A stretch of DNA of 64,000 nucleotides from an uncultured Ligilactobacillus sp. (lineage in GTDB: Bacteria > Bacillota > Bacilli > Lactobacillales > Lactobacillaceae), in the NCBI GenBank assembly GCA_934201845.1, contig CAKPXA010000002.1:1-64000 (forward strand). The letters are read 5' to 3'. The position numbers were made by a program, and so were the translations under genes. Positions 3,182 to 62,856 of this stretch are shown here, in pieces (the first letter of the stretch is position 1; each line of letters starts with the position of its first letter). A model generated the notes under the pieces. That model did no database searches. It saw only the letters and a program-made list of their open reading frames with translations, and had not been told where the DNA came from.

Positions 3182-3203
3182 CTGCATTTTCCGGAAAATG
3201 CAG
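3182..3203. repeat. head-to-head pair of the CTGCATTT/AAATGCAG octamer
   Basis: CTGCATTT at 3182-3189 and AAATGCAG at 3196-3203 form a nearly continuous perfect palindrome of 22 bp or more, centred on CCGG, just downstream of the yaaL terminator. It is the tightest inverted pair of the over-represented octamer described in the findings. Confidence 0.8.
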
Positions 3204-3264
3204 TGTTGGCTTTTATAATTGAGGAAAATAAAGTAGAATAGTATTTAAAGTGAGGTCGTGAAAA

Positions 3265-3906
3265 GTGAGTGGAATGTTCATAACGTTTGAGGGAACGGAC
3301 GGATCCGGGAAGACAAGCGTAATAAGAGAAGTTGTCAGAGAACTTGAGGAAGGCGGCAGAACGGACTTCATTCTGACCAGGGAGCCCGGCGGAAACCGGA
3401 TTTCCGAGGCAATCAGGGACGTCATCCTGGATGACCGCTTCACCGAAATGGATGCGAGGACGGAGGCTCTGCTCTATGCAGCGGCCAGAAGGCAGCATCT
3501 TGTCGAGACGATTGTTCCTGCGCTTGAAGCGGGGAAGCTTGTCCTCTGCGACCGGTTCGTCGACAGTTCGATTGCCTATCAGGGCGCGGGCAGAAGCATC
3601 GGGGCAGCCGATGTCCATGAGATGAACCGATTCGCAACGGACGGGATTGAGCCGGACCTGACGATTCTTCTCGACATTGAGCCGGAACTTGGTCTTGAAC
3701 GGATCAGAAGCAGCCGTCAGGACGAGGTGAACAGGCTGGATCACGAGAAGATGTCGTTCTATCACCGGGTTCACGACGCATACAGGAAGCTGGCACAGGA
3801 AAACGGGCAGAGAATTGTCACAGTCGACGCCTCGGGGACGCCTGAGGAAGTGACTGACGAGGTCAGGGCGGTTCTGAGAAGACGCGCCGGGGAGTTCTTC
3901 GCCTGA
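3265..3906 (+). CDS. tmk: thymidylate kinase
   Basis: Phosphorylates dTMP to dTDP. 213 aa, normal length. The P-loop GTDGSGKTS is at about residues 10-18, the TREPGG loop follows near 37, and the DRFVDSSIAYQG segment (DR motif) near 93. GTG 3265 is preferred, with TGAGGT eight bases upstream; ATG 3274 is the alternative. It begins a second block in the order tmk-darA-holB-yabA-rsmI seen in Bacillus. Confidence 0.97.
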   Translation: MSGMFITFEGTDGSGKTSVIREVVRELEEGGRTDFILTREPGGNRISEAIRDVILDDRFTEMDARTEALLYAAARRQHLVETIVPALEAGKLVLCDRFVDSSIAYQGAGRSIGAADVHEMNRFATDGIEPDLTILLDIEPELGLERIRSSRQDEVNRLDHEKMSFYHRVHDAYRKLAQENGQRIVTVDASGTPEEVTDEVRAVLRRRAGEFFA

Positions 3907-3937
3907 CAATTCCAATCTGAAAGGCAGGGAGATTATA

Positions 3938-4264
3938 ATGAAGTTAATTGTTACCATCGTCCAGGACAAGGACAGCGGCAGGCTGAGCAGCGCGTTCATC
4001 GACGCCGACATCAGGGCGACGAAGCTGTCGTCGACGGGCGGATTCCTTCGTTCCGGCAACACGACGTTTCTGATCGGCATTGATGATGAGAGGGTCGATG
4101 AAGTGCTCGCCATCATCAAGGACGTTTCAAGGAAGCGTCAGGAGTACATGAATCCGTCCGTGAATGCGGACAGCCCGATTGAGGCGGCGACGTATCCGAT
4201 TGAGGTCGAAGTCGGCGGGGCCACCGTGTTCGTCCTTCCAGTCGAGCGTTTTCTGCATTTTTAG
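3938..4264 (+). CDS. darA: PII-like cyclic-di-AMP receptor DarA/PstA (YaaQ)
   Basis: 108-aa trimeric PII-like protein. The start MKLIVTIVQDKD, the segment STGGFLRSGNTTFLIGI and the terminal VFVLPVERFLHF match the DarA/PstA family, which binds c-di-AMP. Its position between tmk and holB is the conserved one. The downstream target is unknown in most species. A KimA-type potassium importer, another c-di-AMP-linked protein, is encoded at 22.2 kb. The last codons contain one copy of the CTGCATTT octamer. Confidence 0.94.
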   Translation: MKLIVTIVQDKDSGRLSSAFIDADIRATKLSSTGGFLRSGNTTFLIGIDDERVDEVLAIIKDVSRKRQEYMNPSVNADSPIEAATYPIEVEVGGATVFVLPVERFLHF

Positions 4265-4266
4265 CC

Positions 4267-5259
4267 ATGAAGCAGGAAATAACGGAACTTCAGCCGCTTT
4301 TGACGAAGCACTTCGCCGCGCTTGTCAGCAGGGGTGAGCTGTCACATGCCTACCTGTTCTCCGGACCGGCGGGAACCGGCCGGCTTGAGCTTGCGCTTTG
4401 GACTGCGCAGGCGGCATTCTGCGAGGACCGCCGGGACGGCCGTCCCTGTGGCAAATGCAGTGCCTGCCGCAGGATAGGTGAACATGTCTTTCCGGACGTC
4501 GTTGAAGTGGCTCCCGACGGCGCTTCCATCAAGGTCGACCAGATTCGCTTTCTCAAGTCAGAGTTCAGCAGGAGCGGGGTTGAGGGGACGAAGAAGTTCT
4601 TCATCATCTCGGATGCGGAGAAGATGACCGCCGGTGCGGCCAACAGCCTGCTGAAGTTTCTCGAGGAACCGAGCGGGGATGTCTGCGCCTTTCTGCTGAC
4701 GGAAAACGCCGGGCTGATTCTGCCGACAATCGTCTCGCGCTGCCAGGAGTTCGAGCTTCAGGCACCGGGATTCGACGATCTGGTCGCAGAACTTGAGAAG
4801 GACGGCATTTCCCGTGACCGGGCCGTCTTTCTGGTCAGCCTGACTGACAGCCTGGAAGCTGCGCGCCGTCTTGCCGCAGACGAGGAGTTTGCGGCGATGT
4901 CTTCTGACGTCAGGGAATGGTTCAGACTCGTCATGGCCGGTGACCTGCGTGCCTTCGTCAATGTGACGACGCGGCTCAGACAGTACATGACGGACCGGGA
5001 GAGACAGAACATGATGCTTGACATGATTGTTCTTCTGACCCGCGATGTCATGCTGCTCGGCCTTGACGAAGAAAGCAGGGTCTCGGTCGAGGCGCTTCGC
5101 GGCGAGATGACTGCATTTTCCATGCGGACCGGTTCCGACCGGACCTGCCGCGCGGTTGAACTGGTTCTGGACGCAAGAAAGCTCATGGCGGTCAACGTCT
5201 CGTTTCAGAACATTGTGGAATCATTGACGCTGAAACTTGTAAGCTGTTATCATGAGTAG
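4267..5259 (+). CDS. holB: DNA polymerase III subunit delta'
   Basis: 330-aa clamp-loader subunit related to DnaX. It has the RFC-like N-terminus (SHAYLFSGPAGTGR), a zinc module built from the cysteines in CEDRRDGRPCGKCSAC, and the SRCQEFEL sensor segment. The Walker A lysine position is GTGRLE, lacking the GKT of an active ATPase, as expected for delta'. It starts two bases after the darA stop without an obvious ribosome-binding site, suggesting translational coupling. It contains two copies of the AAATGCAG/CTGCATTT octamer. Confidence 0.95.
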   Translation: MKQEITELQPLLTKHFAALVSRGELSHAYLFSGPAGTGRLELALWTAQAAFCEDRRDGRPCGKCSACRRIGEHVFPDVVEVAPDGASIKVDQIRFLKSEFSRSGVEGTKKFFIISDAEKMTAGAANSLLKFLEEPSGDVCAFLLTENAGLILPTIVSRCQEFELQAPGFDDLVAELEKDGISRDRAVFLVSLTDSLEAARRLAADEEFAAMSSDVREWFRLVMAGDLRAFVNVTTRLRQYMTDRERQNMMLDMIVLLTRDVMLLGLDEESRVSVEALRGEMTAFSMRTGSDRTCRAVELVLDARKLMAVNVSFQNIVESLTLKLVSCYHE

Positions 5260-7315: not shown

Positions 7316-7420
7316 CTCTCAGACAATTGAGGATAAGACTTCGCTTCAAGAATGGAGCGAGGTCTTTTTATTTGTTCAGACAGGAAAATGCAGAGCCGTC
7401 AACACCGCTGTATTTTTCAT
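7316..7420 (+). repeat. interspersed repeat R1 (hairpin family)
   Basis: Diverged member of a family with copies at 15.7, 25.4 and 35.9 kb. It holds the characteristic hairpin AAGACTTCGCT...AGCGAGGTCTT (7335-7366) with a T-run, then one AAATGCAG octamer (7386) and the shared tail GTCAACACCGCTG (7397-7409). The ISL3-like left end is degraded in this copy. Confidence 0.6.
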
Positions 7421-8153: not shown

Positions 8154-10757
8154 ATGTTAGATGGAAAGTATCGCAGGGAACTGTCCGTTGACGGAAGAAA
8201 ATATGAATACTGTGATTTCGCGGAATTTCTGAGGGACAACGGTCAGAAGGTCAGTGAGATGCCGTATACAATCCGGATTCTGCTGGAACTTGCGTTGAGA
8301 AGGAGTGCGGACAAGCCGTATATCGCAAAGTACCTGGAGGACTTCATTGACTGGGACGGAAAACACGACCATGATGTCGTCTTCAAGCCGGAGCGCGTCG
8401 TGCTGCAGGACCTCACCGGTGTTCCGGCCATGGTCGACCTTGCGTCCATGCGTGACGAGATGAAGCGCAGGGGCGGCGACGTCGAGGCAATCAATCCGGA
8501 CGTTCCGGTTCACATGGTCGTTGACCACTCCGTCCAGGTTGACCGCGCGGGCAGCGACGACGCCTTCGACTTCAATGTCAGGCGCGAGTTCGAGCGCAAC
8601 AACGAGCGCTATACGTTCCTGAAGTGGGCGCAGGACAGCTTTGACAACTTCAAGATCATTCCGCCGGACACGGGCATCATCCATCAGGTCAACCTGGAAT
8701 ACCTGTCGCCTGTCATCAGTCAGCGCGACGGCGTTCTGTTCCCGGACACGCTTGTCGGAACCGACTCGCATACGACGATGATCAACGGCCTCGGCGTCCT
8801 CGGCTGGGGCGTCGGCGGCATCGAGGCCGAAGCCGGCATGCTCGGACAGGAATCGTACTTCCCGCTGCCGAAGGTCGTGGGTGTGAAGCTGACGGGCAGG
8901 AAGCACCCGGGCGTCACGGCCACGGACGTTGCGCTGACGCTGACGAACCTGCTGAGAAGGCATGATGTCGTCGGCAAGTTCGTTGAATACTACGGTGAGG
9001 GTCTGAAGAACCTGCCGCTGGCGGACCGCGCGACGATTGCCAACATGGCACCGGAGTACGGCGCAACGTGCGGCTACTTCCCGATTGACGAACAGACGAT
9101 TGACTATCTGAAGCTGACGGACCGTCCGCAGGAGACGATTGACATCGTCAGGGCATATTCGGAAAGGACGCAGCTGTTCTATAACGAGGATGAGGATGAT
9201 GTCCGTCACTACTCCGAGTACCTTGAACTCGACCTTTCGACGGTCAGACCGAGCGTTGCCGGGCCAAGCCGCCCGCAGGACCTCGTCACCCTGGACAGGC
9301 TGCCGGAGAACTTCAGGTACTATGACACCGAGATTCCGGAAAATCTCGAGTTCGACATGGGCGACGAGCACTTCAGCCTTCGTCCCGGTGCCCTCGGTCT
9401 TGCCGCAATCACGAGCTGCACGAACACGTCCAATCCGGAGGTTCTGATCTGTGCCGGACTTCTCGCCAGGAGAGCCGTCGAACGCGGACTGAAGGTTCCG
9501 TCATACGTCAAGACGTCGCTTTCGCCGGGCTCGCGCGTGGTCACGGAATATCTGAAGGCTTCCGGACTTCAGACGTACATGGACCGTCTCGGCTTCAACC
9601 TGACCGGCTACGGATGCATGACGTGCATCGGCAATTCCGGTCGTCTCAAGGAAGAGGTCGCCGTGGCCGTGGAAAATGCAGGGTATCCGCTCGCTGCAGT
9701 GGAAAGCGGCAACCGTAACTTCGAAGGCCGCGTCAATCCGCTCATCAAGGACACGTATCTGGCAGCACCGCCGCTTGTCGTGGCGTACGCGCTGGCCGGG
9801 ACGCTTGACATCGACCTCGAGCATGAGCCTCTTGGCCGCGACGGCGAGGGCAGGGACGTCTTCTTGAAGGACATCTGGCCGGAACCGGAGGAAATTACGG
9901 AATGCATTCACAACTACGTCAAGCCGGAGCTCTTCTCCGAGAACTACAACGGCATTTTCAGGCAAAACGAGGTCTGGAACAGTCTGGTTCCGCCTGAAGG
10001 TGAGACGTATGAATGGGATAGGGACTCAACGTATCTTGCCTCCGCACCGTTCTTCGACGACAAGGGCGGACAGTCCCGTCTCGGGGGGCTGCGCGTGCTG
10101 GCCGACCTCGGTGACACGATCACGACGGACCACATCTCGCCTGCCGGGTTCATCGGACCCGACACGCCTGCCGGCAGGTACCTGAAGGAGCATGGCGTTG
10201 CCGTGCGCGACTTCAACTCATACGGTTCCCGCCGCGGCAACCACGAGGTCATGGTGCGCGGCACCCTGGCCAACATCCGGCTGCAGAACCGCCTTGCGCC
10301 GGGAAAGCGCGGCGGTTTCACACATGACTGGCTTGACGGAAGCGAGACCACCATTTACGAGGCTGCGATGAACTACCGCAGTCATGGTGTCGGTTCGGTC
10401 ATTCTGGCCGGAAGGGACTACGGCATGGGATCTTCCCGTGACTGGGCCGCAAAGGGCGTCAAGCTTCTTGGCGTCAAGGCCGTCATTGCCGAGAGCTTCG
10501 AGCGCATCCACCGCTCGAACCTCGTCATGATGGGCGTGCTGCCGCTGCAGTATCTGCCTGGTGACAGCACGGAAAGTCTCGGACTGGACGGTTCGGAGAC
10601 GTTTGAAATTGAAATTGAAGGAAAGACTGCACATGTGACGGCGGCAAATGACAGTCACAGGGTCGAGTTCGACGCGAAGGTCCGCTTCGATGCGCCGATT
10701 GACGAGAAGTACTACCGCACAGGCGGCATTCTGCAGTATGTTCTGGAGGAAAAGTAG
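8154..10757 (+). CDS. acnA: aconitate hydratase (AcnA type)
   Basis: 867-aa 4Fe-4S enzyme converting citrate to isocitrate. Cluster ligands are visible as SCTNTS (about residue 420) and GYGCMTCIGNSG (about 488-491). The swivel domain near the end contains YGSRRGNHEVM and GMGSSRDWAAKG. The start is uncertain: ATG 8154 (MLDGKYRREL) is chosen because it leaves a workable distance from AGAGGG, while GTG 8145 lies too close. First gene of a three-gene set with citrate synthase and isocitrate dehydrogenase. It contains one AAATGCAG octamer. Confidence 0.96.
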   Translation: MLDGKYRRELSVDGRKYEYCDFAEFLRDNGQKVSEMPYTIRILLELALRRSADKPYIAKYLEDFIDWDGKHDHDVVFKPERVVLQDLTGVPAMVDLASMRDEMKRRGGDVEAINPDVPVHMVVDHSVQVDRAGSDDAFDFNVRREFERNNERYTFLKWAQDSFDNFKIIPPDTGIIHQVNLEYLSPVISQRDGVLFPDTLVGTDSHTTMINGLGVLGWGVGGIEAEAGMLGQESYFPLPKVVGVKLTGRKHPGVTATDVALTLTNLLRRHDVVGKFVEYYGEGLKNLPLADRATIANMAPEYGATCGYFPIDEQTIDYLKLTDRPQETIDIVRAYSERTQLFYNEDEDDVRHYSEYLELDLSTVRPSVAGPSRPQDLVTLDRLPENFRYYDTEIPENLEFDMGDEHFSLRPGALGLAAITSCTNTSNPEVLICAGLLARRAVERGLKVPSYVKTSLSPGSRVVTEYLKASGLQTYMDRLGFNLTGYGCMTCIGNSGRLKEEVAVAVENAGYPLAAVESGNRNFEGRVNPLIKDTYLAAPPLVVAYALAGTLDIDLEHEPLGRDGEGRDVFLKDIWPEPEEITECIHNYVKPELFSENYNGIFRQNEVWNSLVPPEGETYEWDRDSTYLASAPFFDDKGGQSRLGGLRVLADLGDTITTDHISPAGFIGPDTPAGRYLKEHGVAVRDFNSYGSRRGNHEVMVRGTLANIRLQNRLAPGKRGGFTHDWLDGSETTIYEAAMNYRSHGVGSVILAGRDYGMGSSRDWAAKGVKLLGVKAVIAESFERIHRSNLVMMGVLPLQYLPGDSTESLGLDGSETFEIEIEGKTAHVTAANDSHRVEFDAKVRFDAPIDEKYYRTGGILQYVLEEK

Positions 10758-11908: not shown

Positions 11909-13159
11909 ATGAGTGAAAAGATTACAATGCAAGACGGCACGCTGAACGTGCCTGACAATCCGCAGATCCCGTTCATTGCAGGGGATGGAATCGGACCTGA
12001 AATCTGGTCGGCGGCAAGGGAGGTCTTCGACGCCGCCGTGGAGAAGGCGTATGCGGGCAGAAGAAGGGTTGACTGGCTCAGGCTTCAGGCCGGGCAGGCT
12101 GCATTTGACAGCACGGGCCAGTGGCTCCCGGATGAAACGCTTGAGACGCTGCGCGAGAATCTCGTCGCAATCAAGGGACCGCTGACGACGCCCGTCGGCA
12201 AGGGGCATCGTTCAATCAACGTGACGCTGCGTCAGAAGCTTGACCTCTATGCCTGCTTCAGGCCGGTCAGGTACTACGAAGGCACGCCTTCACCGGTCAG
12301 GGAACCGGAAAAGGTCGACATTGCCATCTTCCGTGAAAATACAGAGGACATCTACGCGGGCATTGACTTCGCTGCGGGAAGTGAGGGCGCTGAAAAGCTC
12401 AAGGCCCTGCTGGAGGAGGAAGGACAGCTTGACAAGGTCCGCTTCCCGGAGACCTCGTCGTTTGCCATCAAGCCGGTTTCACGGGAAGGAAGCACGCGCC
12501 TCGTCAGGGCTGCGCTTGACTATGCGCTCAGTCACGGTAAGAAGAACGTGGCGCTCGTGCACAAGGGCAACATCATGAAGAAGACGGAGGGCTCGTTCAA
12601 GCAGTGGGGCTACGAGGCCTGCCGCGAATACGGCAGCGACGTGTTCACGCAGCTCGAGTACGATGAGGTGAAGAAGAAAGAAGGCACGGAGGCGGCAGAG
12701 GCAGGAAAGGCCGCCGCAAGGGTCTTTGTCAGCGACGTCATCTGCGACAACTTCTTCCAGCAGACACTGCTTTATCCCGAGAAGTTCGACGTGGCGGCAA
12801 CGATGAACCTCAACGGTGACTACATCTCCGACGCCCTGGCCGCCCAGGTCGGCGGCATCGGCATTGCGCCCGGGGCAAACATCAACTACCAGACCGGCCG
12901 CGCCATCTTCGAGGCAACGCACGGCACGGCGCCGCAGTTTGCAGGGCAGGACAGGCTCAACCCGACGTCGATCATTCTCTCCGGTGCGATGATGTTCGAT
13001 TATCTCGGCTGGACGGAAGCTGCTGAGCTGATTGAGAATGCCATCGCCGCAGCAATCGCCGGCGGGCACGTCACGGCCGACTTCGCCGAGAAGATGGACG
13101 GTGCAGTGACATTGAAGACAAGCGAGTTCGGACACTATGTCGCAGGACTCCTGAAATAG
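11909..13159 (+). CDS. icd: isocitrate dehydrogenase
   Basis: 416-aa prokaryotic-type enzyme giving 2-oxoglutarate and CO2. [13 protein letters not shown] carries the substrate-binding Ser102, equivalent to the regulatory serine of the E. coli enzyme. RPVRYYEG and [10 protein letters not shown] are family blocks. The coenzyme segment reads [10 protein letters not shown], with Gln343/Phe344 where the E. coli NADP enzyme has Lys/Tyr, so coenzyme choice is uncertain. ATG 11909 is used because AAGGAG lies nine bases upstream; an earlier in-frame ATG at 11879 is inside citZ. Confidence 0.95.
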
Positions 13160-13173: not shown

Positions 13174-13216
13174 CGGCCGGTGGTCCGGAAAACGGACTGC
13201 CGGCCGTTTTCTGCAT
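13174..13216 (+). terminator. terminator of the acnA-citZ-icd operon
   Basis: GC-rich stem CGGCCGG/CCGGCCG with an inner TCCG/CGGA pair, followed by a TTTT-containing run that carries the CTGCATTT octamer at 13212. Confidence 0.75.
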
Positions 13217-13332
13217 TTTTCATGTGCACATTAAAAGGTCTTTTGCGAATCCTTATCAGATTTTCCCCTTCAGTCGCCGGTTATTTATGTTAAGATATGA
13301 TATGGAAGATTACAGACAAAAAGGACGATATT

Positions 13333-14058
13333 ATGAGAATTTTAGCAATTGATACCTCCAACAGGCCGCTGAGCGTGGCCGTGCTGGAGGACGGCAATTT
13401 GCTCAGCCAGGCGACATGCACAAAATCAAAGAATCACAGCGTCAACCTGCTGCCGCTCATCGACCGGCTCATGAAGGACGCCGGACTTGAGCCCGCAGAC
13501 CTTGACCGCATCGTGGTGGCGAAGGGTCCCGGCTCCTACACCGGCCTCAGAATCGGCGTGGCCACCGCAAAGACCCTGGCCTATACGCTGGGAAGGGAAC
13601 TTGCCGGCGTTTCCAGTCTTGAGGTTCTGGCCGCTGCATTTCCGCAGACGGAAAGGCGCGTGCTGGTGCCGCTGTTCGACGCGCGTCGCGGCAACGTCTT
13701 CGCCGGCGCATACCGTTATGACGATGCCGGCAGGCTCACGGTCGTGATTCCCGACTGCCACGTCGCAGTCACTGACCTCTGCGACCGTCTTGCTTCGGAG
13801 GACGTCATCTTCATCGGCACCGACACCGCCGTCTATGCGGATGTTCTCCGTGAAAAATGCAGAGGCTGCATCCTGGCTGATGCAGGATTCAACTATCCGC
13901 GTGCCGACGTGCTGGGGATGCTCGGGGCTTCGGCCGAACCCGCCGACGTCAACGAATTCGTACCCGACTATCTCAGAATCACCCAGGCAGAGGCACAATG
14001 GCTTGAAAAACATCCGGAGGGGAAAGATGAACATGGCTCCTATGTTGAAAAGGTTTAA
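13333..14058 (+). CDS. tsaB: tRNA threonylcarbamoyladenosine biosynthesis protein TsaB
   Basis: 241-aa partner of TsaD in t6A37 tRNA modification. The N-terminus MRILAIDTSNRPLSVAV and the segment KGPGSYTGLRIGVATAKTLAY are diagnostic. The start is ATG 13333 with AAAGGAC upstream, rather than the in-frame ATG at 13297. It overlaps rimI by 32 bp. The ATPase partner TsaE is not in this window. It contains two octamer copies (13634, 13855). Confidence 0.95.
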   Translation: MRILAIDTSNRPLSVAVLEDGNLLSQATCTKSKNHSVNLLPLIDRLMKDAGLEPADLDRIVVAKGPGSYTGLRIGVATAKTLAYTLGRELAGVSSLEVLAAAFPQTERRVLVPLFDARRGNVFAGAYRYDDAGRLTVVIPDCHVAVTDLCDRLASEDVIFIGTDTAVYADVLREKCRGCILADAGFNYPRADVLGMLGASAEPADVNEFVPDYLRITQAEAQWLEKHPEGKDEHGSYVEKV

Positions 14059-15790: not shown

Positions 15791-15842
15791 ATGTCACGCA
15801 ACGCAGACGGAAGCGGCTCTGCATTTACGGGATCACAGGCTG

Positions 15843-17839: not shown

Positions 17840-17963
17840 GTTGGTTCACCTTTTCATTGAGTAATTGTTGACATTCTTCACAAGTGAAGTGGCACATGAG
17901 CCGAAGATCCACTCATATCAAATGCAGGTTGTATAGAACTTTGTGAATTAAGTAACTTTCTGT

Positions 17964-19910: not shown

Positions 19911-21557
<1,647 letters not shown>

Positions 21558-24095: not shown

Positions 24096-24146
24096 GCAAA
24101 TGCAGTGTCCGCTCAGTGCATTGCGGCCTTCAGCCCTGCATTTGCC
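24096..24146. repeat. inverted pair of the octamer between kimA and tagO
   Basis: GGCAAATGCAG (24096) and CTGCATTTGCC (24136) are perfect 11-bp inverted arms around 29 bases. The arms are extended copies of the octamer. They sit behind the kimA terminator and ahead of the tagO promoter. Confidence 0.75.
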
Positions 24147-26363: not shown

Positions 26364-26429
26364 TTTTTCTTCCTTTCATGCATGATTTTTCCTCTTTTCC
26401 GCGTACTTATACAGTTAGAGGTGATTTTA

Positions 26430-49597: not shown

Positions 49598-49610
49598 TGA
49601 ATTTTACAAG

Positions 49611-49650: not shown

Positions 49651-50047
49651 TTCGGGCAGGCTCCCGGTCATCAGAGTGGACGCTGGAATACCGCATCAGC
49701 GCCTGTCAGTTGAACGGGCGCTGCAATTGCTGTTTTCAATTCAGGCAGAAGGTAAAGTGAAGTACAATGAGCGGAAACGGCATGTCCTGCTTCAGCGGCA
49801 GCGGGGATGTTTATGACGGAAAACTGCAGTCGAGACGACCGGGGCTTCTGTCCGTTGGGATGTCATGGTGACATTCCGGCGTGACGTTTTGAACGGTATT
49901 CTGTGTTACATCACTGCATTTGGCGTGTAAGGCGGGGGCTTATAAGAGCTAGATGAAAAGAATTAAATTTCTCACATATTTATTTTTGCAGGGACGATAA
50001 GTGTTAAATTTAATGTATTAAAATAATTCTTGTTGAGGAAAATGAAG
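49651..50047. other. intergenic region luxS-sdaAB without recognisable gene
   Basis: A 63-codon open frame (49625-49816) and a 33-codon frame from 49769 have no recognised family. ATGTCA-N3-TGACAT (49859-49873) is a palindrome and CTGCATTT lies at 49914. The last 100 bp are AT-rich and probably hold the sdaAB promoter. With the adjoining intron-like segment, the area looks like degraded inserted DNA. Confidence 0.4.
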
Positions 50048-50718: not shown

Positions 50719-51603
50719 ATGTACGGAAGTGTTTCCTCCCTGATCAGGGCATGTGATGAGCTCAGGCTGCCGGTCTGGGAGCTGATGGTCCGTTCGGAGA
50801 TGAAGTACGAGCGCGCCTCGAGACAGGAAGTCTGGGACAAGATGAAAAACCAGCTCGGGGTCATGGAAAATGCAGCGTTCCGGGGCGCCGAGGGGAATGG
50901 CGTTCATTCGCCGACCGGTCTGACCGGTGGTGAGGCTGCCATGATGCGCAGGTACCGTGAGAGCGGCAGGGGGCTTTCGGGCGACCTGGTTCTGTCGGCC
51001 GTTCAGAACTCGCTTGCGACAAACGAGGTCAATGCGGCAATGGGGCTGATTTGCGCGACGCCTACCGCCGGTTCGTCGGGAACGATTCCCGGCGTGCTCT
51101 TCTCGATTGACGAGAAGAGGCATCTGACGGAGGAGCAGAAGGTGCAGTTCCTGTTCACTGCCAGCGCATTCGGGCTGGTGACTGCAAACAATGCCATGAT
51201 TGCGGGTGCCGTCGGCGGCTGTCAGGCTGAAGTCGGGAGCGCGTCCGCCATGGCTGCGGCCGCCGCGGTTGAAGTCTGCGGCGGAACTCCGCAGCAGGCG
51301 GCGGAGGCCTTTGCCATGTCCCTGAGCAATCTGCTGGGGCTTGTCTGCGATCCCGTTGCCGGGCTGGTCGAGATTCCGTGCGTCAAGCGCAACGTGGTCG
51401 GGTCCGTCAATGCCCTGGCCTGCGCCGACATGGCGCTGGCGGGACTTACGAACAAGATTCCCGCCGACGAAGTGATCGGTGCGATGAAGAGCATCGGTGA
51501 GAAGATGCCGGTGCAGCTGCGCGAAACGGGGCTTGGCGGTCTTGCGGCGACGCCGACCGGTCAGAAAATGAAAATCAGAATCTTCGGCGAGGACATGGAT
51601 TAG
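50719..51603 (+). CDS. sdaAA: L-serine dehydratase, alpha subunit
   Basis: 294-aa catalytic subunit carrying the 4Fe-4S cluster. Conserved cysteines are in GLICATPTAGSSGT, GAVGGCQAEVGSA and GLVCDPVAGLVEIPC. ATG 50719 has TAGGAGGG seven bases upstream; ATG 50713 would be too close. It is 11 bp after sdaAB in one operon. It contains one AAATGCAG octamer. Confidence 0.95.
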   Translation: MYGSVSSLIRACDELRLPVWELMVRSEMKYERASRQEVWDKMKNQLGVMENAAFRGAEGNGVHSPTGLTGGEAAMMRRYRESGRGLSGDLVLSAVQNSLATNEVNAAMGLICATPTAGSSGTIPGVLFSIDEKRHLTEEQKVQFLFTASAFGLVTANNAMIAGAVGGCQAEVGSASAMAAAAAVEVCGGTPQQAAEAFAMSLSNLLGLVCDPVAGLVEIPCVKRNVVGSVNALACADMALAGLTNKIPADEVIGAMKSIGEKMPVQLRETGLGGLAATPTGQKMKIRIFGEDMD

Positions 51604-52583: not shown

Positions 52584-53596
52584 TGAATTTGAAGAACAGA
52601 CACCGTCCGAAGATCGTCGTGATTGGCGGGGGAACGGGGCTTCCCGTCGTTCTGGACGGACTGCACAGAAGAAACGCCGACATCACGGCCGTTGTCACCG
52701 TTGCCGACGACGGCGGGTCGTCCGGCATCATCAGGGACTACATCAACGTCGTGCCCCCCGGAGACATCAGGAACGTCCTCGCGGCACTTTCGGACCTGCC
52801 GGAACTTTACAAGGACATCTTTCAGTACCGCTTTGCCTCGAATGACCAGTTCTTTTCCGGTCACGCCATCGGCAACCTGGTCATCGCGGCCCTGACGGAA
52901 ATGGACGGCCGCGGCATTTTCGAGGCGGTCCAGGACCTGAGCAGGATGATGAAGGTCGACGGTCACGTCTATCCCGCTTCCGACCGCCCGCTGACTCTGA
53001 ACGCTGCATTTACCGACGGAACGATCATGGCCGGTGAATCCGAGATTTCTGCCGCCGGCAAGACGATTGACCATGTCTGGGTGACGTCTGCCGACGGTTC
53101 GAAGCCCGAGGCGAAGCCGGAAGTCATCGACGCCATCATGAGCGCCGACCAGATTGTGCTCGGACCGGGCAGCCTGTTCACGAGCATCCTGCCGAACCTG
53201 ATGATTGAAAACGTCGGGGAAGCGGTCCGCAGCACCGAGGCTGAGGTCGTCTACATCTGCAACATCATGACGCAGAAGGGCGAAACGGAGCACTTCACGG
53301 ACGCCGACCACGTGCGCGTCCTGAACCGCCATCTGAAGAAGGACTTCATTGACACCGTCCTGGTAAATACAGAGCCCGTTCCGAAGAACTACATGGACCG
53401 TCAGAAGTACGATGAATACCTGTATCAGGTCAAGTATGACTTCAAGGGTCTCAGGGAACAGGGATGCCGGGTCATTTCCGACAATTTCCTGAAGCTGAGG
53501 GATCAGGGCGTCTTTCATAACGGCGACCAGGTCGTCGAAGAGCTGCTGCGCCTTGCCGGACGTCCGAGGTCATGGTGTGCGGACGAGTCCAACTAG
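52580..53596 (+). CDS. yvcK: gluconeogenesis/UDP-sugar factor YvcK (GlmR)
   Basis: 338 aa of the CofD-like family. [31 protein letters not shown] and PPGDIRNVL are diagnostic. In Bacillus GlmR binds UDP-GlcNAc and stimulates GlmS, linking carbon flow to wall synthesis. Two adjacent in-frame ATG codons open it. One CTGCATTT octamer (53004). Confidence 0.95.
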
Positions 53597-55083: not shown

Positions 55084-57078
55084 TTGAGAAGAATAAAGAA
55101 GGCGATGATCTTTCTTGCCGGCACGGTCTGCGTGATTCTGGTGCTCCTGTTCGTCCATTCACTCGGTCCGGCATACATTGAACCGAACGGGATGTCGTAT
55201 GACATCGAAGGAATGCGTGGCGGAGCAGATTCATCCAGATTCAATAAGGTGGTTGAAGAATATGCGGAAGAGCATGATGCTTCGGTAATCAAGGTCTTCA
55301 ACGTTCCGGCGGTAAGCGGGGGTGACGGTCCGGTCATAAGGATTCACGTCTATGGCAGGAAGGCAGGACTGCCGAAGGGCGTGATGGCATCACATCGGGA
55401 ATTTATTACAAGCGACATCAGATATCCTCTGTATTTCACAGGGGGAGCCGATGCGGCGTCCATTGAGAAAATGTTTTCAAAAAACGGCATCAGGTACAGC
55501 AGACTTAATGAGAACAGGCTCTGGACTGTTGTCAACTTTCTTGAGGAAAATCAGGCACAGGCGCTTTTTCTGCTGATGCTCATGGTTCTTTTCATTTCAC
55601 TTCTGCTGACCAATCTCAGAGAACTCAGGAAAATGAATATCTGTGCGCTGCTTGGAATGTCAAACGTCAGGGAGGCACTGCGCGACTTTCTCGGAAATCA
55701 GAAGGACCTGCTTCTTGTTTATCTGCCGGGGATGACGGCAGCCCTTTTTTACATGGGAATGAAGTCATTCACGCACGCTTACGGCACGGTTCTGTATTTT
55801 GCGGCATTGCTGTATCTGGCCGTGACGGCCGTCATGCTTGCTGCGGCAGTCGCTCGCTGTGCGATGCATTCGCGAAGGACAATCAGTGCTGCCGTCAAGG
55901 GAAACAGTCATAGCAGATTCTCGTTTTACGTCAATATGACCTTCAAGGCCGTGACAGAGATCTTTGTCTGCACGACATGCGTGTCCCTGATCGGTGCTGT
56001 CAGGAACGGGTGTCAGATGGAGGCACAGCTGTCGACGTGGATGAAGGGAAGAACTTATTACACCGTCAATCTGGCACCGTATGCCAGTTCCGGGAAGGAA
56101 ACGCACATTCTGGAACAGAAGGCGGGAAAGTTCTTCTGCTATCTTGAAAAGCACGGCGGGATGCTTGTCAACTATCAGGGATTCGGCCGACCGGAGGCTT
56201 CCACAGGCGATTTGTTCAGCGGCAACGTCATGACCGTGACCGCCGGGTATCTTCAACGGAACAGGGTTATGGGAGCTGACGGCAGAAGAATTCTCCTGCC
56301 GGCGGATTCCGATACGACGTATGTTCTTGTTCCGTCAAGTCAGTTCGAAAACCGCAGACAGCTTGTGAGAAATTACCGCAATCAGCTGTGGCTGAACGAT
56401 GCCGGGAAAAGGATGAACGGAAAGCTTTCTGTCAGGACGCTGGAGACGGCAGATGACCAGAAGCTGTTTACATACAGCGCAGATGCGCTTGATCTTGGAT
56501 GTTACTCGGGAAATGCTGAAAATCCCGTGGTCGTCGTTCTGTCGGAAAAGTCACTTGGCGGAATCAGCCCGGAAAACGTCAATGCCAACAGCAGCTGGCT
56601 GACATTCATTTCAAATCAGTCGTTTCTCTGTCCGGATGTGTCGGCGATTCAGAATGGAATGGAGAAAGCTGGTCTTACGGGCTGGATCGGCAGCATCGTC
56701 AACACCAGAAGCCTTGCGTGCAGGAAGCTTGCTGCAACAAGGACCAGAGTCAGGGTGCTGACGGCAGTTCTGGTGATTGCACTGCTGGTTGCCGGCATTG
56801 AGACGTTTTCATTCACAGGCATCTACTTCAGCAACAACAGGAAGAAGATTGCGGTCAAGCGGCTGCTTGGGGCAGGTTCCGTGCAGATTTTCGGCAGGTT
56901 TGCAGCATTGCTTGTCTTTCTCAGTGTGCTCGAAGCGGGAATGTCTTTTCTGATTACGAAAAATGCAGTGGCTGCTGCGGCACTGTCCGTTGCATCCAGT
57001 TTCTGCGGAATTGTCATCCTGTCTGTACAGAGTCTGCTGGTCAGCAGGACAATTGCCATGACGCTCAAGGGGGAATGA
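55084..57078 (+). CDS. bacteriocin-associated integral membrane protein (DUF1430/MacB-like), copy 1
   Basis: 664-aa permease of the type found beside lactococcin 972 genes and thought to give export or immunity. One N-terminal helix (about 5-25), helices near 157-175, 208-225 and 233-255, a large outer region (about 290-555), and three C-terminal helices around the FtsX-like motif VKRLLGAGSVQIFGRFAALL. TTG start with GGGGGGGG upstream. It ends overlapping the ATPase start (ATGA). It uses more AT-rich codons than the flanking core genes, a sign of later acquisition. Confidence 0.72.
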   Translation: MRRIKKAMIFLAGTVCVILVLLFVHSLGPAYIEPNGMSYDIEGMRGGADSSRFNKVVEEYAEEHDASVIKVFNVPAVSGGDGPVIRIHVYGRKAGLPKGVMASHREFITSDIRYPLYFTGGADAASIEKMFSKNGIRYSRLNENRLWTVVNFLEENQAQALFLLMLMVLFISLLLTNLRELRKMNICALLGMSNVREALRDFLGNQKDLLLVYLPGMTAALFYMGMKSFTHAYGTVLYFAALLYLAVTAVMLAAAVARCAMHSRRTISAAVKGNSHSRFSFYVNMTFKAVTEIFVCTTCVSLIGAVRNGCQMEAQLSTWMKGRTYYTVNLAPYASSGKETHILEQKAGKFFCYLEKHGGMLVNYQGFGRPEASTGDLFSGNVMTVTAGYLQRNRVMGADGRRILLPADSDTTYVLVPSSQFENRRQLVRNYRNQLWLNDAGKRMNGKLSVRTLETADDQKLFTYSADALDLGCYSGNAENPVVVVLSEKSLGGISPENVNANSSWLTFISNQSFLCPDVSAIQNGMEKAGLTGWIGSIVNTRSLACRKLAATRTRVRVLTAVLVIALLVAGIETFSFTGIYFSNNRKKIAVKRLLGAGSVQIFGRFAALLVFLSVLEAGMSFLITKNAVAAAALSVASSFCGIVILSVQSLLVSRTIAMTLKGE

Positions 57079-57816: not shown

Positions 57817-59949
57817 TTGAAAAAGGTTTTTTCACTAAGTCTGCTGGTCTTTCTAGTCATCTCCGGGATATTTGTCATGAACACTTCCGTTGAAGGATAT
57901 GTTGCGCATGTTCTGTACAAGGGCAAGACGGAGGTTTCACTGGTCGTTCGTGATGACGCCGACCGTTCTGAACTGACGGAGGACATTGAGAGGGTGGCTG
58001 TGGGGGATACAAGCGTTTCGCAGTACTTTCTTACAGGTGAGAACAGGCTTGATATTTACAGTGCCAATCCGAGTTTTCCAGTCACCGGGGACATTCCGCA
58101 TGGCGGCTGCATTTCAAATCGCAGCAGAAGCGGTCCAAGGCTTCTTGTTCCGGATATCGGCTGCCGTGTGAGCCTTTTTTCCTTCGACCGGATACGCAAT
58201 GCCGGATTTAACGAGGTCTTTTATGTTTCAGGTGATGTTGAAAGGGTCTGCAGTGTCCTGAGAAGGTTTGGAAAGGTCCGCATACGGAATGATGTGGATG
58301 AGACACTTGTCAGGGATGATGATGGAACCCCGATACTTCTGATGACTGTTCCTGCTGCAGTTTCGCTGCTGTCCCTGGCCTTCATCCTGTTGAAGCAGGA
58401 ACGCCGGGTTGACCTTATGAAGCTGCTCGGGCGCAGGAGGTGTGAGGCCTTTACGGAGTCCGTCAGGGACGTCTTTTCTCCGCTTGCCTTTTCAGTATTG
58501 TCCAGCGGTGTTATTCTCGTAGCTTATGCGATTCAGCGCGACATGGTCGATTACTGCATGACGTTCACGCCTTCTCTTCTTGTCCTGTATGTCCTTGTCG
58601 TTCTTTTTGTCTTGTTGTTCTCCGGATTTTCCGGCGTCGTTCATTATGGAAGAAGGATGACGCTTGCGGGTAAGCCGGAATTTTCAAGGGCTGTTATGGT
58701 GGCAGGCTCTGTATTTTTCATCGCCGGTGTCCTGCTGACGACCGTTATGCTGCCGGAAGTTCATCGGAAGTACGATTGTCTGAGAAGTCAGGCTGCGGTT
58801 TTACGGCACTGGAGCTCGGCCGGGAATCTGTATCAGACCAACCTGACCAATCAGATTGACCGGTTGGATAATTCGGTCGAAGCTGAGTATGACTTGAGAG
58901 CAATGAAACTCTGGAAGAAGATGAGGACTGATTACCGGACATTCGTCGTCTTCTCGAACAATCTGCTCTGGACTTACGGAGAGGACGGACAGTATCGGCC
59001 GTGGTACCGGAATAATCCCGACAACAAGACCGAAGCTGACTATATCTGTTCGGTTTCCGGGCATTCAATGACTGCCGACGTCAACTATTTGCGTCTGTCC
59101 AAAGCGAAGCTTGCAGACGGCGGAAATTTGTCTGAACTCAGGCCGGGGCCGTCAGAGCGGATTCTGATAGTTCCGGAGAAGTACAGAAAGTATGAAACGA
59201 AGATTCGCCGCAACTATCGGAATGAGTTCCTGTTTCAGGCTGGAAGTGACTTTGTGCGTTGGAAGAAGGTGATGCATGTGCCTGAGTTGACTGGCAGAAA
59301 TCTGAAGATCAGGATTGTGTATGCAAGGGACAATCAGGATTATTTCACCTATAATCCCGATTCCGGAGACAGTCTGCTGACGAATCTGGTAAAGGACCCG
59401 GTCATAGTGCTGTTTGATGATCATCAGAACAGTCTTTCATACGGCAATCTGTTCTGCCTGAACGGCGGGTTCTTCTTTTTCGACGACCATGCCGGCAGTG
59501 TGTATGAACGTCTCAGGCCTTGTCTTGAACGGACGGGAATGGGGTCTGAAATAAACTTCGTAACGTCCGTATATTCCAGGAAGGCTGAAATCGTCGAAAG
59601 GGCAAGGCGTGACGCCATTACCGGCGCCGTCCGGCTTGTCTCCTGTGTTGCCTGCGTCTTTTTGTCACTGGTCCTTCTGGTCGGTCAGTATTATCTCATG
59701 CATGAGAGGGAGATTGTCATCAGAAGACTCATGGGACATTCCGTCTGGAAAATCATGTCCGGGCCGCTGCTGCTTGCGGCATTGACGTTTGCATTCGGGG
59801 ATGTCGTCTCAATCTGCCTGATGCGGGGAGTTGACGCGGCGAGCCTGCTTTCATCGGCCTTGATGCTTGCCGTCGTCGTCGTATCTTCACTTCTCATGGT
59901 CATGAATGACATCGGAAAGTATACAAGGAAAATGGGGAGGGATTCCTGA
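57817..59949 (+). CDS. bacteriocin-associated integral membrane protein (DUF1430/MacB-like), copy 2
   Basis: 710 aa with the same plan as the 664-aa protein: N-terminal helix (about 4-22), a helix cluster at 185-310, a large outer loop with many Tyr/Arg/Asn residues (about 320-590) and three C-terminal helices around VIRRLMGHSVWKIMSGPL. Sequence identity to copy 1 looks low, so the duplication is old or the two were acquired separately. TTG start after GGGGGAG. Confidence 0.7.
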   Translation: MKKVFSLSLLVFLVISGIFVMNTSVEGYVAHVLYKGKTEVSLVVRDDADRSELTEDIERVAVGDTSVSQYFLTGENRLDIYSANPSFPVTGDIPHGGCISNRSRSGPRLLVPDIGCRVSLFSFDRIRNAGFNEVFYVSGDVERVCSVLRRFGKVRIRNDVDETLVRDDDGTPILLMTVPAAVSLLSLAFILLKQERRVDLMKLLGRRRCEAFTESVRDVFSPLAFSVLSSGVILVAYAIQRDMVDYCMTFTPSLLVLYVLVVLFVLLFSGFSGVVHYGRRMTLAGKPEFSRAVMVAGSVFFIAGVLLTTVMLPEVHRKYDCLRSQAAVLRHWSSAGNLYQTNLTNQIDRLDNSVEAEYDLRAMKLWKKMRTDYRTFVVFSNNLLWTYGEDGQYRPWYRNNPDNKTEADYICSVSGHSMTADVNYLRLSKAKLADGGNLSELRPGPSERILIVPEKYRKYETKIRRNYRNEFLFQAGSDFVRWKKVMHVPELTGRNLKIRIVYARDNQDYFTYNPDSGDSLLTNLVKDPVIVLFDDHQNSLSYGNLFCLNGGFFFFDDHAGSVYERLRPCLERTGMGSEINFVTSVYSRKAEIVERARRDAITGAVRLVSCVACVFLSLVLLVGQYYLMHEREIVIRRLMGHSVWKIMSGPLLLAALTFAFGDVVSICLMRGVDAASLLSSALMLAVVVVSSLLMVMNDIGKYTRKMGRDS

Positions 59950-60578
59950 TGATCAAGTTGCAGAATGTCCATAAGAAGTACGGCAGTCAGCATGTCCTGA
60001 ACGGAATTGACCTGGAAGTGGACCGGGGCGTCTTCTGCGGCATCTCGGGCAGGAGCGGTGCCGGCAAGTCGACCCTGCTCAAGCTGATTTCCGGCATCGA
60101 GCGGCCCGACGAAGGCAGTGTGACCCTTGACGGTCGCAGTCTTGACAAATACAGTGTCCCTGACATTTGGGGAAGTCGTTTTTCGTTTGTTTTCCAGAAC
60201 TATTTTCTGCTGGATGACAGGAGCGTGGAAGGAAATCTGCGGCTTGCAGACAGGAGGGCTGACAGACGTAAAATGGCAGAGGTTCTTGAGAAGGTCGGAC
60301 TGGCAGAGGATGTCCTGAACAGGAAGGTGCCCGAGCTGAGCGGCGGAGAAAAGCAGCGTGCGGGAATTGCCCGCGCGCTGCTCAAGCCCTTTGACATACT
60401 GATTGCAGATGAGCCGACGGGCAATCTGGATCGTCAGAATGCCCGTGCAGTAAGGGAGATAATGAGAAGGTTGAGTGATGAGGGGAAGACCGTCATCGTC
60501 GTTTCACACGACGACGGCTTCCTGGACGTTGCCGACCGGAGACTGCTGCTTGAGGACGGGAGACTGAAGTCCGTCTGA
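59949..60578 (+). CDS. ABC transporter ATP-binding protein, bacteriocin type, copy 2
   Basis: 209 aa. Walker A GRSGAGKST (about 35-43), Q-loop VFQNYFLLDDRSVEGNLRL, signature LSGGEKQRAGIARALL, Walker B DILIADEPTGNLDR. Overlaps the permease stop (TGATG). The second complete ABC unit in the island. Confidence 0.86.
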   Translation: MIKLQNVHKKYGSQHVLNGIDLEVDRGVFCGISGRSGAGKSTLLKLISGIERPDEGSVTLDGRSLDKYSVPDIWGSRFSFVFQNYFLLDDRSVEGNLRLADRRADRRKMAEVLEKVGLAEDVLNRKVPELSGGEKQRAGIARALLKPFDILIADEPTGNLDRQNARAVREIMRRLSDEGKTVIVVSHDDGFLDVADRRLLLEDGRLKSV

Positions 60579-61320: not shown

Positions 61321-61335
61321 TAATACGCTCCGGAC

Positions 61336-61367
61336 AAAAAAGGCGCCGGAAGTCAGTTTCCGGCGCC
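61336..61367 (-). terminator. terminator of tRNA-Arg
   Basis: GGCGCCGGAA/TTCCGGCGCC stem; on the minus strand it is followed by TTTTTTG. Confidence 0.8.
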
Positions 61368-61419
61368 GAAAGAACAAAACATTTGACATTTTGCGTTGAA
61401 AGCGGTCTAATAATAGTTA

Positions 61420-61491
61420 TGCACCACCTGGGAGTCGAACCCAGATTACAAGAACCGGAATCTTGCGTGCGATCCATTACACTAGCGGTGC
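61420..61491 (-). tRNA. tRNA-Arg (anticodon CCG)
   Basis: A full cloverleaf is visible on the minus strand: acceptor GCACCGC/GTGGTGC, D-stem GTGT-type/GCAC, anticodon stem CAAGA/TCTTG with loop TTCCGGT (anticodon CCG, reading CGG), T-arm CTGGG-TTCGACT-CCCAG, discriminator A. CCA is not encoded. Confidence 0.93.
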
Positions 61492-61557
61492 GTACTCTTA
61501 TTATTTTAATCTAACAGGCGATGAATTACAAGGATATTTTGAAGGAAGGTGTGTCTT

Positions 61558-62856
61558 TTGTCACTGCAGCAGGGATTGGGACAGCAGCAGAAGCAGATTC
61601 AGAAGCTGGCGATGACGCAGCAGATGCAGCAGTCAGTCAGGATTCTGAAGTACAGTTCCGAGGAACTTCATGACTTTCTGTCCGGGGCAGAGCTGGAAAA
61701 TCCGTTCATGACGGTCGGCTTCTCCAGTTCGTACGTTGCCGGAAGCATTGACCAGGGAGAAGCCGGCGCCGACGTTTCGGAGTTTGCGGTGGAGAGACGG
61801 TCGCAGTCGCTTTATGACTATCTGATGGATCAGGTCAGGCTCACGATGAGGAAGACGCCGATCCGGGACATGGTCGTCCATCTCGTCTCGCAGCTGGACC
61901 GGAACGGCTACCTGGAGGTTGACCTGAAGAAGCTGGCGGACGAAAGGCATGTTGACGAAATTCTCGTGCTTGATGCGTTGACTCTTCTGCAGCAGCTCGA
62001 TCCGCCGGGGGTCGGCGCAAGAAACCTGCAGGAATGCCTGGTTCTTCAGACGCAGTATGACGAGTCGGCACCGCCTCATGCAGAGGAGATACTCAGAAAT
62101 GACTTCGAGGACTTCACGGACCGCAACTGGCGCAAGGTTGCTTCACGGCACTGCATTTCAACGGAGGACGTGCAGAAGATCCTCGATTATGTGCAGACGC
62201 TGTCGCCTGCACCGGGTGCCGCATATGACCAGTCCGAGACCGGGTACATCGAGCCGGACCTGGTGGTTGAAAGGGGCGTTGACGGGACGCTTGAGGTCAG
62301 GCTGACCAGGGAGGCCAGCCCGGAAGTCAGGTTCAGGAATGAATATTATGAAAGCCTGCTGAACAATCCCGACAGCAGCGTACTGGAATATCTGAAGGAA
62401 AAGCGCGGCGAGTTCGAGAGAATCAGGGACGACATCATGATGCGCGGCAGCACGCTGCTTCGTCTCGGCAGGCTGATTGTCGAACGGCAGCATGACTTCT
62501 TCACTGAAAGCAGTCATCCCCTGAAGCCGTTTCTTCTCCGCGATGCCGCGCAGAAGCTGCAGCTGCATGAGTCCACGGTCAGCAGGGCGGTCAGCGGCAA
62601 GTACCTGCTGTGTGATGCGGGAGTGCTCGAGCTTCGGTCGTTCTTCTCGCAGGCCGTTTCCGAAAGCTTCAGCGCGGCTGACGTTCAGCGCATGATCAGG
62701 AAGATAATCGCCGGCGAGGACAAGAGACATCCGCTGTCGGATCAGAAGATTGCCGATGCACTGAAGGAGGAGGGGCTTGAAGTGTCCCGCCGGACGCTTG
62801 CCAAATACAGGGAACGGATGGGTATTCCGGCATTCGGGCTTCGCAGACGTTACTGA
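61558..62856 (+). CDS. rpoN: RNA polymerase sigma-54 factor
   Basis: 432 aa. Region I is Gln-rich (LQQGLGQQQKQIQKLAMTQQMQQSVRIL), the core-binding region follows, then the helix-turn-helix (LHESTVSRAVSGKYLL) and the RpoN box SRRTLAKYRERMGI. TTG 61558 is chosen, eight bases after GAAGGAAGG; GTG 61549 overlaps that site. It recognises -24/-12 promoters and needs enhancer-binding activators, none of which is seen here. The rpoN-cggR order is known from Listeria-type genomes. Confidence 0.93.
   Translation: MSLQQGLGQQQKQIQKLAMTQQMQQSVRILKYSSEELHDFLSGAELENPFMTVGFSSSYVAGSIDQGEAGADVSEFAVERRSQSLYDYLMDQVRLTMRKTPIRDMVVHLVSQLDRNGYLEVDLKKLADERHVDEILVLDALTLLQQLDPPGVGARNLQECLVLQTQYDESAPPHAEEILRNDFEDFTDRNWRKVASRHCISTEDVQKILDYVQTLSPAPGAAYDQSETGYIEPDLVVERGVDGTLEVRLTREASPEVRFRNEYYESLLNNPDSSVLEYLKEKRGEFERIRDDIMMRGSTLLRLGRLIVERQHDFFTESSHPLKPFLLRDAAQKLQLHESTVSRAVSGKYLLCDAGVLELRSFFSQAVSESFSAADVQRMIRKIIAGEDKRHPLSDQKIADALKEEGLEVSRRTLAKYRERMGIPAFGLRRRY

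Follow-up and report, generated by a model that had tools for sequence, protein, structure and literature searches.

The octamer AAATGCAG is strongly over-represented in a 64,000-nucleotide stretch of DNA from an uncultured Ligilactobacillus sp. (CAKPXA010000002.1, positions 1–64,000; this whole stretch is termed the window) and lies at the centre of an extended, asymmetric motif in which positions -3 and +9 are G, position 0 being the first base of the octamer. In several genomic respects it resembles known uptake sequences, and we consider the chances about even that it is the core of a DNA-uptake-type signal, which on the best reading of the data would be new for Gram-positives. The window itself looks like chromosomal DNA of a lactobacillus: its genes include dnaX, holB, tsaB, tsaD, secA, uvrB, uvrA and rpoN, and its SecA shares 95% identity with proteins of Ligilactobacillus ruminis.

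As outlined in Table 1, the exact octamer occurs 29 times in the window, in 13 cases as AAATGCAG and in the other 16 as CTGCATTT. Shuffling the window by dinucleotides gave 2.21 copies on average (standard deviation 1.60) and none of 100 shuffles reached 29, in agreement with the initial annotation, which had listed 29 copies in a 13:16 orientation against about two expected by chance; all of its positions were correct except 13212, which should read 13211. The variant AAATACAG/CTGTATTT was counted 12 times (previously given as about 11) against 0.71 expected, and its addition raises the density from 0.45 to 0.64 per kb. Among the further one-mismatch neighbours AAATGCAC occurs twice and AAATGCAA once, as had been claimed.

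Genome-wide tests were run on the nearest genome, the L. ruminis-like G062, in place of the window's own. Among 397 genomes of the family and 26 of the genus of G062, the DnaX of G062 is closest to that of the window (72%). The SecA of G062 shares 98.7% identity with a SecA of L. ruminis and 94.0% with that of the window, and long stretches of G062 align over most of the window with DNA identities between 61 and 79%. G062 contains 746 copies of AAATGCAG in about 2.0 Mb (352 and 394 per strand), compared with 51 to 239 in each of its 25 congeners (raw counts, uncorrected for composition). In a sample of 931,904 bases of G062 (9,345 of them N) 388 copies were found against 78.6 expected from an order-2 Markov model, and 144 copies of AAATACAG against 34.2; all other one-base variants stay at or below 1.9 fold, and two dispersed-repeat words rank above the octamer among the 8-mers. 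The word GNNAAATRCAGNG occurs 336 times in G062, its reversed word 7 times. In the 396 other family genomes the next highest counts of GNNAAATRCAGNG are 62 (genome G256, see below) and 30, and the maximum in 295 genomes drawn from the order is 37 (G631; reversed word 7). Among the scanned genomes, the Markov model was further applied to G256 and to G002, an Enterococcus. The initial annotation had proposed a genome-wide 8-mer count and a comparison with sister species as checks; the motif is common to the window and G062. As a separate observation, the base composition has shifted markedly between the sister species, third-position GC being 0.73 in the genes of the window and 0.49 in G062 despite the 94% identity of SecA and a largely kept gene order.

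Repeats were removed from the G062 copies by a filter for 18-mers in the flanks outside the motif, which flags 9% of random G062 positions; 16-mers including the motif and 14-mers (79% of random positions flagged) were unfit for this purpose. Repeated flanks were found for 89 of 387 copies, all but 5 of which are non-coding (84), and the largest cluster of such copies has 27 members; no copy of the window has a flank that recurs within the window. The remaining 298 copies (216 coding, 82 non-coding) still amount to 3.8 times the Markov expectation. With respect to the repeats themselves, TTTGCCCGTAA occurs 169 times in 932 kb of G062, 168 of these outside called genes, and belongs to a repeat of about 52 bp, sometimes in tandem, which can contain CTGCATTT (for example at L162:7668-8189); 31 of the 388 octamer copies lie within 60 bp of it. 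A second dispersed repeat surrounds the octamer, with tgtccgtaaacggcagtgattttgcc ahead and partly shared DNA behind (for example L154, L155 and L178), and clusters of 27 and 25 octamer copies have common flank 18-mers. Dispersed repeats common to both species were also seen in the window (21611-22005, 25420-25567, 35864-35974 and 49411-49652), mostly intergenic and each matching G062 DNA in several places, at identities of 75 to 99%.

The flanks extend the octamer to a non-palindromic motif, G-n-n-AAAT(G>A>C/T)CAG-n-G, in which T frequently stands ahead of the first G. In the window G stands at -3 in 21 and at +9 in 22 of the 29 copies, and T or C at -4 in 25. The 18 coding copies have each of the two G's at a frequency of 0.72, and the 11 coding copies of AAATACAG at 0.73 (-3) and 0.82 (+9). 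Repeat-free coding copies of G062 (n=216) show G-3 at 0.56, G+9 at 0.64, T-4 at 0.50 and C+10 at a low 0.29; for the non-coding ones (n=82) the frequencies are 0.65 for T-7, 0.68 for T-4, 0.52 for G-3, 0.78 for G+9 and 0.66 for C+10. In G062 a T-rich stretch thus precedes the core in coding and in non-coding copies. The fifth base is tolerant, since variants there largely retain the flanking G's and control variants do not: in G062 the frequencies of G-3 and G+9 are 0.58 and 0.45 for AAATCCAG, 0.38 and 0.55 for AAATACAG, and 0.35 and 0.46 for AAATTCAG, intermediate for AAATGCAC (0.43 and 0.38; 42 copies), and without enrichment for controls such as AAATGCCG (0.22 and 0.10).

How strict the consensus appears depends on requiring the flanking G's. 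With both required, the flanks having been learnt from the same copies, the window holds 18 perfect copies, 13 differing at base five and just 3 differing elsewhere; the corresponding numbers in G062 are 150, 91 and 74, or 115, 79 and 66 without repeats. Among octamers lacking the G's, with base five excluded, 4 perfect copies compare with 25 mismatched ones in the window and 55 with 716 in G062. The bare octamer has 60 one-mismatch neighbours beyond AAATACAG in the window (101 exact or one-mismatch octamers in total), and neither there nor in G062 are perfect copies in a clear majority over singly mismatched ones. The earlier statement that one-base variants are rare is therefore correct in part, for octamers of the window with both G's.

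Codon or amino-acid usage was rejected as the cause on the basis of synonymous shuffling. Genes of the window hold 18 copies of AAATGCAG against 1.7 after shuffling (10.5 fold; the largest of 100 shuffles gave 6) and 11 copies of AAATACAG against 0.7, and the genes of G062 hold 218 against 53.9 (4.0 fold), although control words, too, lie above their shuffled counts (window, 1.7 to 2.8 fold; G062, 1.5 to 2.2 fold). These numbers bear on the use of otherwise rare codons by the octamer, pointed out in the initial annotation. An RNA-level signal was likewise ruled out, the genic copies of G062 lying nearly equally on either strand (114:107).

For the orientation analysis gene direction stood in for the direction of replication; it covered the 38 pieces of G062 (717,563 bases) in which more than 75% of the coding bases point one way. 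The ratio of copies along and against gene direction was 156:126 for AAATGCAG (P 0.08) and 45:62 for AAATACAG, together 201:188; the motif evidently has no bias to gene direction. Other over-represented words in the same oriented pieces are skewed, namely CGGTGCCG (55:15) and GGTGCCG (93:22), and are possible Chi candidates of G062.

The initial annotation had placed about a third of the window copies between genes: 10 of 29 lie outside the gene list against 3.3 expected (P 0.001), one of them, at 7386, inside an open reading frame (ORF) without NCBIfam match, and just 1 of the 12 copies of AAATACAG does so. In G062, with a rough gene caller, 167 of 388 copies were non-coding against 88.2 expected, about half of them repeat-borne; of 1116 words with a similar composition, 23 attain this share of 0.43, and several of the 23 are repeat words. 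Without repeats 82 of 298 copies are non-coding compared with about 17% by hand estimate and with 57 of 344 for three control words, so that a preference for non-coding DNA is present and modest once repeats are removed.

Positions of the motif turn over between the species. The 41 AAATRCAG sites of the window were aligned against G062: 29 fell into ungapped alignment, 4 were next to short gaps (1 to 4 bases), and the long alignments did not extend to the other 8. Sites were present in both species in 13 cases, in the window only in 16 and in G062 only in 15, which gives 31 single-species sites with an ungapped counterpart in the other species. Exact identity was found for 9 of 29 sites compared with 17.8% for words of like composition (1579 of 8853; P 0.06). 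The density is kept, with 0.64 per kb in the window and 0.57 to 0.58 in G062; from these counts and densities it follows that sites are gained and lost at a steady density. Judged from the alignments, sites seem to arise by point mutation and not by insertion, the repeat-borne copies of G062 excepted.

Scarcity of the motif was observed in a prophage of G062 on contig C12, where all 8 searched proteins have hits in families of phage proteins (tape measure, head, portal, terminase, integrase, exonuclease, endolysin/tail). The prophage gene span C12:3471-29561 holds 4 AAATRCAG sites against 15.0 expected (P 0.0008), and the longest site-free stretch, C12:5585-27320, which was chosen post hoc, 1 against 12.5. 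Site-poor stretches of native DNA also exist in G062, namely ribosomal-protein genes with secY, a region for dTDP-rhamnose/choline and the suf genes. Across 80 loci of related viral contigs AAATGCAG is not in excess (50 versus 71.6), and AAATACAG is (111 versus 61.2); the closest one, L231, has 3 of either word in 19 kb. Phage records gave no near match of a prophage piece, and plasmid records none for a site-poor piece.

A third genome, G256, belongs to another genus of lactobacilli (DnaX 56%) and contains 185 copies of AAATGCAGT, compared with 14 to 55 in 14 congeners. In 640,000 bases of G256 AAATGCAG has the top z of all counted 8-mers (97 versus 31.9), AAATACAG is raised 2.6 fold and other one-base variants stay at or below 1.5 fold; these counts include any dispersed-repeat copies. 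Its flanks differ, with T or G at -3 and T at +8 and +9, and the shared core with different flanks has the appearance of a motif dialect. By the gene direction of the pieces AAATGCAG is balanced (36:33) and AAATACAG is not (10:21), and non-coding copies are in excess for both words (25 of 97 against 16.2 and 23 of 47 against 7.9). The sharing is narrow, as neither the 25 congeners of G062 nor the 14 of G256 reach comparable counts. The Enterococcus genome G002 was rejected as motif-rich: its raw count of 434 compares with 57 for the reversed word, yet no Markov excess was found in 160 kb (23 versus 15.9 for AAATGCAG, 15 versus 18.1 for AAATACAG), the reversed word being a weak control for the octamer.

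The competence machinery is encoded in G062. ComGA (NF041000) and ComEA (TIGR00426), both by NCBIfam, and ComEC (PF03772), by Pfam, were all found over cut-off in open frames, together with a ComGB-like protein and four pseudopilins assigned by gene order and signature. Pseudopilins recognized by signature numbered four in 6, three in 8 and one in 1 of 15 genomes. In the window the initial annotation had named comFA and comFC; for the former, matches to PriA-like helicases support the helicase assignment and the name comFA comes from gene order, and for the latter the TIGR00201 match was found under its cut-off.

We infer the following course of events. A surface DNA receptor belonging to the competence machinery, for which a minor ComG pilin is the simplest candidate, would favour double-stranded DNA bearing the motif, and the imported fragments would recombine into the chromosome. 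Sequences that bind better would be spread by transformation, resulting in hundreds of copies in both orientations, genic as well as intergenic, which would turn over by point mutation. In the more specific case, G-n-n-AAAT(G/A)CAG-n-G would be a self tag read by the ComG competence pilus, both in the Ligilactobacillus ruminis group and, independently, in a distant lactobacillus; in our judgement this falls slightly short of an even chance. It would be the first Gram-positive DNA uptake sequence, with a specificity evolved for the third time, outside the Proteobacteria and in a pilus acting without an outer membrane. Self-tagging would then not be tied to the outer membrane, a receptor could be sought among the few ComG pseudopilins, and the old question why such tags spread could be put to the test in a narrow lineage whose close relatives are poor in the motif; a handle for transforming lactobacilli might also result.

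Abundance, strand symmetry, turnover by substitution, dialect-like sharing and a T-rich side are hallmarks of uptake sequences which were observed here. What defines such a sequence is the preferential uptake of DNA that bears it, and the octamer is accordingly called uptake-type and not claimed as a member of the class. A number of results weigh against an uptake-type signal. Regular spacing, paired copies in G062 and a gene-end bias are lacking: 12 gaps of at most 40 bp in G062 equal the 12.0 expected, the octamer counts in 20-kb pieces of G062 are over-dispersed (variance/mean 2.36, or 2.09 without two prophage pieces), and the search for gene-end enrichment, suggested in the initial annotation, was negative. 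The octamer reaches a density of roughly half a copy per kb in the window and G062. Some of the copies in G062 spread along with repeats, about half of its non-coding copies (84 of 166) having repeated flanks, and C at +10 shows no preference in the window (8 of 29 copies). The genic copies of G256 lean to the opposite strand (28:44 for AAATGCAG, 6:18 for AAATACAG). An IS605-like insertion between comGD and comGE splits the comG operon of G062, and comFA/comFC are the only competence genes of the window species visible within the 64 kb. ComGB was found in all 15 genomes tried, motif-rich or motif-poor, and the charge and cysteines of the pseudopilins, compared by eye in these 15 genomes, did not separate the two groups. 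With ComGB in motif-rich and motif-poor genomes alike, the distribution of the motif is not explained by the presence of the machinery, and a change of specificity would be needed. Literature searches returned no report on uptake or transformation for this lactobacillus group and no title on such a motif in lactobacilli among the matches listed, and with the octamer as search term the matches listed were unrelated by title. The repeats weaken the evidence from non-coding copies, T-tract and C+10, and on their account we lowered our estimate from somewhat better than even to even for the uptake-type signal, and from even to slightly below for the ComG self tag.

Among the alternatives, a site for a chromosomal DNA-binding protein (a nucleoid organiser, a segregation factor or a self-marking defence factor), maintained in hundreds of copies by chromosomal selection and with no link to uptake, is the main rival, and we regard it as rather unlikely. 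The extended graded footprint, the scarcity in the prophage and the lineage-specific abundance are as compatible with a binding protein as with a receptor. To our knowledge, however, chromosome organisers use palindromes or strand-skewed sites, and the motif is neither palindromic nor strand-skewed; moreover, just 13 of the 29 aligned window sites are also sites in G062, and with individual positions turning over, chromosomal location appears to be of little importance. A Chi site, which would switch AddAB (RexAB) from degradation to recombination, appears improbable. AddA was found in G062 (1328 bits, over cut-off; AddB was not searched for), so that AddAB is probably there, the copy number of the octamer is within the range of Chi, and prophage scarcity fits as well. 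The strand balance does not: tested against the 75% bias of Chi in Escherichia coli, 201:188 in G062 gives P 3e-23, and for the window, with 13 of 29, P is 0.0005. Flanking preferences and one-base tolerance would be unusual for Chi, the 25 congeners lack a comparable abundance, and skewed over-represented words such as CGGTGCCG do exist in G062. The initial annotation put uptake first, with Chi, methyltransferase and chromosome-organising protein sites as alternatives; counts close to Markov expectation would have spoken against its uptake reading, and a strong leading-strand skew with no enrichment at inverted pairs would have favoured Chi. By this rule the excess in G062 without gene-direction skew favours uptake over Chi. 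Inverted pairs, however, are not in excess in G062, and much of the non-coding excess there is due to repeats.

Recognition by a DNA methyltransferase or restriction system, with over-representation for an unspecified reason, seems very improbable. Some targets of modification systems are non-palindromic and lineage-specific, as is this site, but graded flanks and a tolerant fifth base are atypical of them, and an enrichment of 5 to 13 fold would be uncommon for restriction targets. Hardly any weight is left for a mere by-product of dispersed repeats or codon usage. Repeats do explain part of the non-coding copies of G062, as seen from the repeated flanks and the proximity to TTTGCCCGTAA, but more than three quarters of its copies stay after filtering, the flanks of the window copies are unique within the window, and most window sites lie in ungapped alignment with orthologous DNA; most of the genic excess, in turn, is gone under synonymous shuffling.

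The sites of the window are compiled in Table 1 together with the candidate machinery. Both inverted pairs emphasized in the initial annotation fold (3182/3196 and 24098/24136); the hairpin holding the former reaches a terminator-like score, of which 1 was found against 0.6 expected in shuffles. Close pairs number 3 against 1.0 expected in the window, too few to weigh. Apart from the motif, the genes of aconitase, citrate synthase and isocitrate dehydrogenase are consecutive at 8145-13159, a row which is unusual for a lactobacillus, and 55084-57078 and 57817-59949 encode two proteins related to a bacteriocin-associated integral membrane family (TIGR01654, under cut-off). The insertion in the comG operon of G062 corresponds to an IS200/IS605-like transposase pair at L166:8900-10500, recognized from its translations.

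Table 1 Copies of the octamer and its fifth-base variant in the window, and candidate competence genes.
Element	Position	Strand	Remark
AAATGCAG	3182..3189	-	left arm of inverted pair, terminator-like hairpin 3180-3205
AAATGCAG	3196..3203	+	right arm, hairpin 3180-3205; homologous place in G062 is AAATACAG
AAATGCAG	4253..4260	-	within darA
AAATGCAG	4453..4460	+	within holB
AAATGCAG	5111..5118	-	within holB
AAATGCAG	7386..7393	+	near oppositely oriented AAATACAG at 7408
AAATACAG	7408..7415	-	variant
AAATGCAG	9674..9681	+	within acnA
AAATGCAG	12099..12106	-	within icd; same in G062
AAATACAG	12337..12344	+	variant
AAATGCAG	13211..13218	-	not in any listed gene
AAATGCAG	13634..13641	-	within tsaB; same in G062
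AAATGCAG	13855..13862	+	tsaB/rimI ORF overlap
AAATGCAG	15819..15826	-	not in any listed gene
AAATGCAG	16673..16680	+	within ABC-F gene (gene on - strand)
AAATGCAG	17920..17927	+	not in any listed gene
AAATGCAG	18363..18370	-	within rex; same in G062
AAATGCAG	21299..21306	+	same in G062
AAATACAG	22617..22624	+	variant
AAATGCAG	24098..24105	+	not in any listed gene; inverted pair with 24136
AAATGCAG	24136..24143	-	not in any listed gene; inverted pair with 24098
ComFA-like DNA helicase, candidate machinery	26382..27773	+	PriA-like helicase matches
AAATGCAG	26703..26710	+	within comFA-like helicase gene
AAATGCAG	27346..27353	-	within comFA-like helicase gene
ComF family protein (ComFC)	27766..28458	+	TIGR00201 84 bits, under cut-off 233.55
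AAATGCAG	34650..34657	-	not in any listed gene; CTGTATTT in G062
AAATGCAG	37213..37220	+	site
AAATACAG	41318..41325	-	variant; same in G062
AAATACAG	44571..44578	+	variant within uvrB
AAATGCAG	47153..47160	-	within uvrA; CTGTATTT in G062
AAATACAG	48678..48685	+	variant within uvrA
AAATGCAG	49914..49921	-	not in any listed gene
AAATGCAG	50868..50875	+	same in G062
AAATGCAG	53004..53011	-	same in G062
AAATACAG	53365..53372	+	variant
AAATACAG	55429..55436	-	variant
AAATACAG	55792..55799	-	variant
AAATGCAG	56961..56968	+	site
AAATGCAG	58107..58114	-	site
AAATACAG	58709..58716	-	variant; CTGCATTT in G062
AAATACAG	60147..60154	+	variant
AAATGCAG	62151..62158	-	within rpoN; same in G062
AAATACAG	62803..62810	+	variant within rpoN; same in G062

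In comparison with known systems, PMC1626085 describes uptake sequences as occurring near one per kb without orientation bias, with some inverted pairs, with a spacing somewhat more regular than random, more commonly in non-coding DNA, and with an unusually strict consensus common to relatives. Regular spacing and inverted pairs are named there as common traits, not as function; the uptake signal sequence (USS) of Pasteurellaceae is given AT-rich flanks, and the DNA uptake sequence (DUS) is described without flanking motifs. A gene-end bias in Pasteurellaceae is reported in PMC2346458. The octamer is like the USS (AAGTGCGGT / ACAAGCGGT) in its short non-palindromic core, its hundreds of copies on both strands, many of them genic, an AT-rich stretch on one side, the T-rich stretch of G062 recalling USS segments, and its dialect-like variation. 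It differs in the word itself, in that the AT-rich stretch lies on the other side of the core, in about half the USS density, in the lack of regular spacing and of an inverted-pair excess in G062, and in its Gram-positive host; AAATGCAGT and AAGTGCGGT are two transitions apart, probably by coincidence. Chi of RecBCD/AddAB is likewise a short over-represented word with fewer prophage copies, and AddA is present, whereas the octamer has no gene-direction bias and has graded flanking preferences. The DUS of Neisseriaceae is an unrelated word, described without flanking motifs, whereas the octamer has preferred flanks; it is read by the minor pilin ComP, whereas the ComG pseudopilins show no separating feature by eye. 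Common to DUS and octamer are the genome-wide abundance on both strands and the encoded competence pilus.

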